This document shows, in pieces, positions 4,670 to 59,701 of a stretch of DNA of 64,000 bases. Position 1 is the first letter of the stretch, and each line of letters opens with the position of its first letter. The stretch comes from Halosolutus amylolyticus (lineage in GTDB: Archaea > Halobacteriota > Halobacteria > Halobacteriales > Natrialbaceae), in contig NZ_JALIQP010000001.1 in NCBI RefSeq assembly GCF_023566055.1, forward strand, positions 248,001 to 312,000, in the 5' to 3' direction. Below the pieces are notes generated by a model that was not told the origin of the DNA, did not search any database, and saw nothing but the letters and a program-made list of their open reading frames with translations. The translations under genes and the position numbers were made by a program.

Positions 4670-4753
4670 GGTGGGGTGGCAGAGCGGCCTAACGCGCCTG
4701 CCTTGAGAGCAGGTGGCTGTCAAGCCTCATGGGTTCGAATCCCATCCCCACCG
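4670..4753 (+). tRNA. tRNA-Ser (anticodon UGA)
   Basis: The acceptor stem GGTGGGG pairs with CCCCACC and the discriminator is G. The anticodon arm is CCTGC-CTTGAGA-GCAGG with TGA at the centre. A long variable arm is present, as expected for class II tRNA-Ser. The T arm is ATGGG-TTCGAAT-CCCAT. CCA is not encoded and there is no intron. Confidence 0.95.
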
Positions 4754-4887
4754 TTTTCCCGCGAACAACTGCGACGAGCGTAGCGAGGAGCACGTGAGCG
4801 GAAAACGACACGTTGGGATTCGAACTAGACCAGTCGCGCGCAGCGGAGCGAGCACGTCTGGGCGTGGTTCGAATCCCATCCCCACCG
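4754..4887 (+). repeat. tRNA-Ser 3'-end echo unit (134 bp)
   Basis: The unit begins right after the tRNA and ends with a second copy of its last 22 bases at 4866-4887. In between are an inverted repeat (TTTTCC near 4754, GGAAAA near 4800), an inverted copy of the T arm (TGGGATTCGAAC at 4814-4825), and a block with CCAG and CTGG arms enclosing CAGCGGAGCGAGCA. The same order of parts follows tRNA-Thr and tRNA-Lys in this window. No gene is present. Confidence 0.85.
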
Positions 4888-15895: not shown

Positions 15896-15969
15896 GCCAG
15901 GGGAGCATGGGCGGTTCATGCACTCGACTTGTAATCGAGACTTCGTGGGTTCAAATCCCACCCCTGGCT
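15896..15969 (+). tRNA. tRNA-Thr (anticodon UGU)
   Basis: Acceptor GCCAGGG pairs with CCCTGGC and the discriminator is T. The anticodon arm CTCGA-CTTGTAA-TCGAG places TGT at 34-36. T arm GTGGG-TTCAAAT-CCCAC. CCA is not encoded; no intron is seen. Confidence 0.95.
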
Positions 15970-16080
15970 TGGTGACGCGAGCAACTTCGCGAGCGTCAGC
16001 GATGCCAATTGGGATTTGAAGCAGGGAGTGAAACGAGCGACGCGAGTGGAACGACCGTGGTTCAAATCCCACTTCTGGCC
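15970..16080 (+). repeat. tRNA-Thr 3'-end echo unit (111 bp)
   Basis: A second copy of the T arm and acceptor strand lies at 16059-16080 (GGTTCAAATCCCAC, then TTCTGGCC with two changes from CCCTGGCT). The spacer holds a small hairpin TGACGC/GCGTCA, an inverted T arm TGGGATTTGAA at 16010-16020, and the phrase ACGAGCGACGCGAGTGG. The layout matches the units after tRNA-Ser and tRNA-Lys. Confidence 0.82.
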
Positions 16081-54048: not shown

Positions 54049-54122
54049 GGGCCGGTAGCTCAGTCCGGCAGAGCGTCTGACTCTTAATCAGACGGTCGCG
54101 TGTTCAAATCGCGCCCGGCCCG
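54049..54122 (+). tRNA. tRNA-Lys (anticodon CUU)
   Basis: Acceptor GGGCCGG pairs with CCGGCCC, discriminator G. Anticodon arm TCTGA-CTCTTAA-TCAGA with CTT at the centre. T arm GCGTG-TTCAAAT-CGCGC. CCA is not encoded; no intron. Confidence 0.95.
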
Positions 54123-54236
54123 CTTTTGCCACGAGCAAATCCGCGAGTGGCAAAACGGCCCCGCGATTTGAAGTAGACCAGAAAGGCGCAGCGGAGCGAG
54201 CATTTCTGGGCGTAGTTCATAATCGCGCCCGGCCCG
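54123..54236 (+). repeat. tRNA-Lys 3'-end echo unit 1 (114 bp)
   Basis: Order of parts: perfect 9-bp hairpin TTTTGCCAC/GTGGCAAAA (54124-54155), inverted T arm CGCGATTTGAA (54162-54172), hairpin CCAGAAA/TTTCTGG enclosing GCAGCGGAGCGAGCA (54178-54209), and then the echo of the tRNA end (54212-54236, AATCGCGCCCGGCCCG preserved). The echo is followed again by CTTTTGC, so the next unit starts the same way. Confidence 0.88.
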
Positions 54237-54369
54237 CTTTTGCACCGAGCAATCACGTGAGGAGCAAAGCGGCTAGCGTGATTTGAGCTAGCTGAGTCGC
54301 AGCCCGCACAGCCGAACGGAGTGAGGCGAGCAGGAACGTCTTCCCGTAGTCACAATCACTCCCGGCCTG
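54237..54369 (+). repeat. tRNA-Lys 3'-end echo unit 2 (133 bp, degraded)
   Basis: Begins CTTTTGCACCGAGC with partner GAGCAAAG, contains GCGTGATTTGAG in place of the inverted T arm, the words GAACGGAGTGAGGCGAGCAG, and ends in ATCACTCCCGGCCTG, a worn copy of the tRNA end, followed by a T run. The decay with distance from the tRNA suggests that the unit next to the tRNA is youngest. Confidence 0.75.
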
Positions 54370-59458: not shown

Positions 59459-59592
59459 GCAGGCCTGTAGACAGCAGGCCTGCATTAACCCTTCCCACCC
59501 ACGCTTGCGCGGGATGGTGCATCGGTTATGTTCGGATTAGATCGAAATCGTCTGCCCCACTTAAGGGGCACGATTCGATCCGCTCCGAGACA

Positions 59593-59664
59593 TGGACCCA
59601 CAGGGATTCGAACCCTGGGCATCCTCCTTGCAAAGGAGGCACTCTACCACTGAGCTATGGGCCC
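59593..59664 (-). tRNA. tRNA-Ala (anticodon UGC) in the 16S-23S spacer
   Basis: Acceptor GGGCCCA pairs with TGGGTCC allowing a G-T pair; discriminator A. Anticodon arm CCTCC-TTTGCAA-GGAGG with TGC at the centre. T arm CAGGG-TTCGAAT-CCCTG. Spacer tRNA-Ala is normal for Halobacteria. Confidence 0.96.
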
Positions 59665-59701
59665 ACCCCTGCTGGAGTGACCAGCAGGGAGCAAACGTTA
59701 G

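Follow-up and report, generated by a model that had tools for sequence, protein, structure and literature searches.

Hairpin repeats fitted to the local tRNA 3' end follow many haloarchaeal tRNA genes and may enter them at the T-loop boundary

The stretch of Halosolutus amylolyticus DNA analyzed here (64,000 nucleotides; hereafter, the window) contains a tRNA-Lys(CTT) gene followed by two repeat units, a well-kept one at 54124-54236 and a worn one at 54238-54369. The features of this array are as follows.

54049-54122 (end at 54122/3), + strand: tRNA-Lys(CTT), from ARAGORN, Rfam (RF00005), and the sequence
54103-54122, + strand: nucleotides 54-73 of tRNA-Lys, the segment that is echoed, from the sequence
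54124-54155, + strand: unit 1, hairpin h1, TTTTGCCAC GAGCAAATCCGCGA GTGGCAAAA, from sequence and fold
54162-54172, - strand: unit 1, inverted copy of tRNA-Lys nucleotides 54-64, CGCGATTTGAA, from the sequence
54173-54215, + strand: unit 1, hairpin h2 region, from the sequence and stem covariation across haloarchaea
54216-54236, + strand: unit 1, direct copy of tRNA-Lys nucleotides 54-73 with one extra base in the loop, from the sequence
54238-54269, + strand: unit 2 (worn), hairpin h1, TTTTGCACC..GGAGCAAAG, from the sequence
54276-54287, - strand: unit 2 (worn), inverted T-arm copy, GCGTGATTTGAG, from the sequence
54288-54349, + strand: unit 2 (worn), h2 region of another type, GAGTCGCAGCCC..GGAACGTCTTCCCGTAG, from the sequence
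54350-54369, + strand: unit 2 (worn), degenerate direct copy, TCACAATCACTCCCGGCCTG, from the sequence

Each unit follows the same plan: h1, which starts with TTTTGC; the T loop and the 3' half of the T stem in inverted orientation (nucleotides 54 to about 63); h2; GCGTAG or a similar sequence; and finally a direct copy of tRNA nucleotides 54-73, which we call an echo. In unit 1, the h2 region consists of the linker GTAGA and the stem CCAGAAA/TTTCTGG (54178-54209) around GGCGCAGCGGAGCGAGCA, followed by GCGTAG. A sequence-only reading of the window had described this order, once kept and once worn, and we confirmed it as a real repeat: 54107-54159 recurs directly at 54221-54273 with a spacing of 114 nt. 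The same reading held that the units carry no gene, which was borne out, as they have no coding capacity. A one-base loop insertion of the kind seen in the first echo (54216-54236 in the window; TTCAcAATC or TTCAtAATC) recurs at five other loci (L024, L232, L234, L344, and L345), in echoes that belong to different tRNAs. Directly 3' of the array lies a gene for a macro-domain protein (Pfam PF01661; 54800-55321).

Two further units, missed by the sequence-only reading, lie 3' of tRNA-Ser and tRNA-Thr genes in the window. Both have the plan of the tRNA-Lys units, with the inverted and direct copies taken from their own tRNA; no unit was found after tRNA-Ala(TGC) (59592-59665) within the window.

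4670-4753, + strand: tRNA-Ser(TGA)
4754-4805, + strand: Ser unit, hairpin h1
4813-4824, - strand: Ser unit, inverted copy of tRNA-Ser nucleotides 54-64, TTGGGATTCGAA
4825-4867, + strand: Ser unit, hairpin h2, CTAGACCAG..CTGGGCGTGG, an exact match in the Halobacteria motif search
4868-4887, + strand: Ser unit, direct copy of tRNA-Ser nucleotides 54-73, 19/19 identical at 54-72
15896-15969, + strand: tRNA-Thr(TGT)
15970-15998, + strand: Thr unit, hairpin h1
16009-16020, - strand: Thr unit, inverted copy of tRNA-Thr nucleotides 54-64, TTGGGATTTGAA
16061-16080, + strand: Thr unit, direct copy of tRNA-Thr nucleotides 54-73, 2/19 mismatches

We examined echo frequency in three genomes by searching within 400 bp of each tRNA gene for its own nucleotides 54-72 with at most 3 mismatches over 19, using the 3' ends of tRNAs of other isotypes in the same flanks as the control. 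In the H. amylolyticus genome, 21 of the 46 tRNAs had an own-end echo, compared with 0.76% for other-isotype ends (all 46 loci read), and an alignment-score version of the search gave 19/46 against 0.3%. Genomes of a second and a third haloarchaeal family displayed own-end echoes at 13/31 tRNAs (control 1.4%) and 12/31 tRNAs (control 0.9%), respectively. Thus, in each of the three genomes, 39-46% of the sampled tRNA genes are accompanied by repeats made of the gene's own 3' end, and about half of the tRNAs have no unit. The upstream flanks contained no echoes except for a tandem tRNA-Asp duplicate. These results indicate that the echo arrays occur far beyond chance.

The units were also searched for with the motif GATTYGAAYNAGAN{28,58}GCGTRGTTCRAATC, with the pattern read backwards as the control. 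The motif was present in 79 of 292 Halobacteria genomes, representing 38 of 78 genera, and the backwards control gave 0; the strict motif had no match in the third-family genome described above. Enrichment in relatives had been set beforehand as the test of the sequence-only reading, and the units passed it in both respects, with echoes enriched in three families and the motif spread over these genera. A same-strand tRNA lay at most 1.2 kb upstream of 107 of 116 motif matches, and echo nucleotides 62-72, which are outside the motif, differed from the adjacent tRNA at 0.95 of 11 positions as against 6.3 for other isotypes. The inverted copy was likewise specific to the local tRNA over nucleotides 54-65 (mean percentile 0.13, where 0.5 means no specificity), with a mismatch rate that was low up to nucleotide 61 and reached 0.65 at nucleotide 65 (n = 137 units with a perfect echo). 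It was not specific over the acceptor (0.46), and the idea that it serves as a primer-binding site was rejected on this ground. Short motifs such as GCGAAGCGAGC occur in both hairpins and look repetitive, so that we had to consider whether the units are a coincidence or belong to the low-complexity repeats common in halophiles and merely lie near tRNAs; this explanation is refuted by the own-versus-other tRNA controls and by a core search that used no tRNA letters (see below), and we give it practically no weight.

Next to the wide distribution within Halobacteria, occurrence outside the class was sparse. A search covering 84,980 species found the motif in 96 stretches, and of the 80 listed, 79 were haloarchaeal and one came from a Methanomassiliicoccales metagenome-assembled genome (MAG). 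No echo was found at 27 tRNA loci that represent other classes of the phylum (seven genomes), and the single echo among 30 tRNA loci sampled across the phylum was in a haloarchaeon. Neither IMG/VR nor phage records contained a motif match, which excludes a viral or phage origin as far as these collections go, and plasmids yielded nothing beyond one 71-base partial match. Within a genus, the units come and go. The tRNA-Lys(CTT) genes of three species of the genus are followed by two units, one truncated unit, and none, and their tRNA-Lys(TTT) genes by one truncated unit, one that is complete but of another type, and one that is worn. At tRNA-Ser(CGA) in 29 species of a related genus, the number of intact units ranged from 0 to about 2, and broken units were numerous.

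We then determined the limits of the duplicated block by comparing tRNAs with their echoes. At the 5' edge, identity was 0.98 at position 53 (G in nearly all), 0.64 at 52, and 0.14 at 51, and at the 3' edge it was 0.93 at 73 and 0.58 at 74. These sharp drops show that the block consists of nucleotides 54-73 and stops where the mature tRNA ends in the genome. At two loci, one at tRNA-Leu(GAG) in the H. amylolyticus genome (L061) and one at a tRNA-Tyr of another genome (L274, G281), a partial copy of the 3' half of a tRNA is split at 53/54 by a hairpin insert that has no additional 54-73 copy; these splits mark the 53/54 insertion point independently.

Among 272 distinct loci, 181 had an echo and 64 had at least two, although the set is enriched for motif matches and its echo fraction is not a frequency. 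Units were about 90-130 bp long, and echoes were spaced by about 110-145 bp. The nearest echo had 0.44 mismatches to its tRNA and the farthest 1.58 (31 arrays versus 5, p = 1.3e-5), and this distal decay was also seen at loci that were not motif-selected (8 arrays versus 0, p = 0.008). Spacers between two perfect echoes had a median identity of about 0.65, with 76% of pairs below 0.7, which is near the 61% identity of unrelated spacers of the same plan. Since spacers differ so strongly between identical echoes, most arrays did not grow by whole-unit copying, and plain tandem duplication is excluded as their main origin. For the same reason, the suggestion in the sequence-only reading that a tRNA-derived repeat copies itself beside its parent fails as plain tandem copying. 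Higher-order duplications do exist (L073, L077, and L149, at 0.96-0.99), including two-unit blocks in L073 and L077. The arrays of five at these last two loci have perfect echoes far from the tRNA; instead of reflecting recent insertion, these could owe their identity to gene conversion or to selection.

To follow the hairpins independently of the tRNA ends, we searched for one h2 core, AGACCGAGGTTCTGCG..AGGTTCTCGG, without including any tRNA letters. Reading the matched sequences showed, after each of its 78 occurrences in 50 genomes, GCGTRG or something close to it and then, at a fixed distance, nucleotides 54-73 of some tRNA, with a one-base change in TTC in 3 of the 78. In the 48 cores with flanks, the distance to nucleotide 54 was constant (48/48) while 34 different T62-72 sequences followed, and the inverted copy beside the core tracked the local tRNA (mean rank 0.20). 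The occurrence of one core at many tRNA ends is the strongest sign that cores pass from one tRNA gene to another and adopt the end found there.

The h2 stem itself is conserved as a structure. Its four outer pairs form in 94-97% of 96 distinct hairpins, compared with 42-78% expected if the two sides were independent, and C-G, G-C, and A-T are all common among them. An RC-GNA-GY tip was present in 69 of the 96 hairpins; such tips are exceptionally stable in DNA, which we take only as a hint here. Cores were flipped in 3 of 120 cases; at L064, L147, and L148 the flipped core lies between the two T-arm copies. The h1 and h2 modules were swapped between units at L110 and L117. The inversion at L115, 3' of a tRNA-Ser(CGA), takes in a larger part of the unit and apparently occurred between the h1 arms. 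A kink-turn/L7Ae motif in h1 was considered and dropped, since on a reading of the sequence a tandem G-A is present and no 3-nt bulge is. The inverted and direct copies, in contrast, do not co-vary or maintain each other: among 62 units with a changed direct copy, the better match to the tRNA was the inverted copy in 41 cases and the direct copy in 13.

The explanation that suits these properties best, at about even chances, is a family of non-coding hairpin repeats of about 90-130 bp that would enter tRNA genes at 53/54, duplicate nucleotides 54-73, and have its cores exchanged by insertion or gene conversion. In this scheme, a unit would enter the tRNA gene at 53/54 with duplication of nucleotides 54-73, leaving the tRNA intact and turning its old end into the echo. 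Later units would enter beside the tRNA and displace older ones outward, where they would decay. Cores would be traded between tRNA loci, with insertion as one route and short-tract gene conversion across the TTCRAATC flanks that the loci share as the other. The inverted copy may align an incoming unit with its target, or fold-back synthesis may have left it behind. Candidates for the enzyme are a tyrosine recombinase and a Cas1-like integrase, either of them acting in trans. Repeated entry at 53/54 accounts for the sharp edges, the perfect tRNA-adjacent echoes, the outward decay, the unrelated spacers, and the presence of one core at many tRNAs. What counts against insertion alone is that plain target duplication leaves the customized inverted copy unexplained; it would be explained if this stretch paired with the target and was then corrected, or if gene conversion acted in short tracts across the TTCRAATC flanks. 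The units also lack terminal inverted repeats that belong to the element, since the only inverted repeat at their edge is the tRNA's own sequence. Since we found neither a precisely dated insertion (one strain with and without a unit) nor an enzyme, circle, or autonomous relative, our confidence in the insertion reading is only moderate.

The more specific proposal that this is a new site-specific system, in which a hairpin-borne repeat pairs its inverted T-arm with T54-63, enters at 53/54, duplicates 54-73, and is then corrected to the host tRNA, appears rather improbable. If it were true, one mobile core would suit any tRNA and leave it working, and the likeness in Methanomassiliicoccales would make it a wider archaeal mechanism.

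Several known systems resemble the units in part. The SMR-A small mobile repeats of Haloquadratum walsbyi are likewise about 110 bp, gene-less, haloarchaeal, of unknown mobilization, and inclined to palindromic targets, but they possess terminal inverted repeats, do not duplicate their target, insert into IS605-type elements and PATEs, and commonly show >95% identity among copies of one type (PMC3119063); the tRNA units, in contrast, duplicate tRNA nucleotides 54-73, have diverse spacers, and lack the element-owned terminal inverted repeats that define both SMR-A and MITEs. Casposons also use tRNA ends: the Cas1 casposase of A. boonei recognizes TCAAATC in the 3' end of a tRNA, the neighboring target is duplicated over 14-15 bp beginning 8 bp downstream of TCAAATC, and the element has genes and terminal inverted repeats (PMC6614799). 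The duplication in the tRNA units differs, covering nucleotides 54-73 (about 20 bp) and including TTCRAATC itself, and their spacers share one plan with neither terminal inverted repeats nor a solo cas1. Islands of tyrosine recombinases of the T-loop/3'-end class also have an intact tRNA whose 3' end is repeated in direct orientation further on (PMC8371274), and the sharp-edged copy of the units (53/54 and 73) has this form. Unlike such islands, the units form arrays at about 100-bp spacing with an added inverted copy, no integrase or cargo lies in their 90-130-bp spacers, and no integrase is among the six neighboring genes tested at tRNA-Lys. Mitochondrial repetitive hairpin-forming elements are similarly short, mobile-looking intergenic hairpins, and the abstract describing them does not mention copying of a neighboring tRNA end (PMC2800124).

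CRISPR arrays share with the tRNA-unit arrays identical repeats and differing spacers, and their addition at the leader end has a parallel in the distal decay seen here. The spacers of the units are not captured foreign segments of even length; they share h1, the inverted copy, h2, and GCGTRG. Integron attC arrays grow beside a fixed site, and their sites are imperfect hairpins with a variable tip. The units have hairpins of this sort and may grow in the same way, but they follow the local tRNA, have no conserved arm pairing, carry no cassette genes, and are linked to no integrase; a selected attC-like hairpin was rejected because the arms do not co-vary. In the open full-text literature, we found no description of such repeats.

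The fixed edges also bear on the possibility that no transposition enzyme is involved. Fold-back (template-switch) synthesis at the palindromic T arm could have made the inverted and direct copies, with gene conversion spreading and shuffling the hairpins and keeping the echoes identical. Haloarchaea are polyploid and have very efficient gene conversion (PMC4056108, PMC8223754), making conversion among many chromosome copies plausible, and the alternation of inverted and direct copies, the flipped cores, the larger inversion at L115, and the h1/h2 swaps would all fit; a similar but sequence-unrelated layout in the Methanomassiliicoccales genome would point to a general process. We nevertheless consider this explanation unlikely, though it is the main rival of the insertion reading, as the fixed boundaries at 53/54 and 73 and the constant core-to-nucleotide-54 distance look enzymatic and the layout was not seen after the 27 tRNAs of other classes of the phylum. 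A function as RNA ranks next. Here the pre-tRNA trailer would fold into both hairpins plus a mimic of the T arm and acceptor, which would take part in tRNA 3' processing or compete with the tRNA fold, and selection would keep the copies. This would be consistent with the placement of units on the tRNA's strand (97% in one orientation), the covarying h2 stems, a predicted Lys-precursor fold that pairs the 5' acceptor strand with the echo instead of its own end, and the small RNAs adjoining tRNA genes listed for Haloferax mediterranei (PMC5852579). The independence of inverted and direct copies (41 versus 13, n = 62), the variation of unit presence, number, and type among congeneric species with many broken units, the absence of units from about half of the tRNAs, and the detection of the tRNA alone by Rfam 15 (other matches at E about 0.6) argue against it. 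An RNA role tied to the tRNA is thus unlikely, and less likely than the insertion reading; the tRNase Z mimic or foldback RNA offered in the sequence-only reading is disfavored by the same lack of co-variation and by the turnover of units within the genus.

That reading, which is partly supported overall, had also proposed repeated insertion at a tRNA attachment-type site. The sharp 53/54-73 duplication, the distal decay, and the unrelated spacers fit this, but we found no integrase among the neighbors tested, no larger element, and no virus carrier. It is very unlikely that the units are remnants of integrated plasmids or viruses, with echoes as attR halves and spacers left over from internal deletion. 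In favor of such remnants, textbook attachment sites show just this kind of duplication, running from the T loop to the end of the tRNA, and the 3' ends of tRNAs are the preferred targets of archaeal integrases (PMC8371274). Against this, one fixed spacer plan (h1, inverted copy, and h2 ending in GCGTRG) recurs at dozens of tRNAs and across genera, and independent deletions would not leave such a plan of about 90-130 bp; in addition, none of the six neighboring genes tested at tRNA-Lys encodes an integrase, and no virus carries the motif. Retro-copying of mature tRNA was excluded, since no CCA follows the echoes and T-rich h1 starts come instead.

If mobile, these would be among the smallest repeats re-tailored to each target while sparing it, and they would adjoin sites that are also used for integration by plasmids, viruses, and casposons. 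If they are not mobile, they would reveal a DNA process that copies tRNA ends in both orientations. In both cases they make annotation harder, because the echoes mimic attachment sites and tRNA fragments.

The Methanomassiliicoccales MAG (L123/G307, CP070739.1) has the haloarchaeal plan with a perfect echo 3' of its tRNA-Ser(TGA), and echoes with at most 3 mismatches follow 6 of its 28 tRNAs (control 1.6%); as a single MAG, this occurrence beyond Halobacteria is a lead. Many tRNAs of this MAG are followed by a different element, in which inverted and direct copies of the acceptor end surround CGTGTTCGAGTTAT..TTAAGCTCGAACAC, forming a minihelix-like copy of the tRNA acceptor stem whose sequence is unrelated to the haloarchaeal units. 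Four other loci (L260, L263, and L265 of G281, and L187), 3' of certain tRNA-Ala, -Gly, and -Arg genes, have hairpins of the opposite strand sense (CTCACTTCGTTCG) that are bordered by echoes of the acceptor part, and these perhaps constitute a second family.
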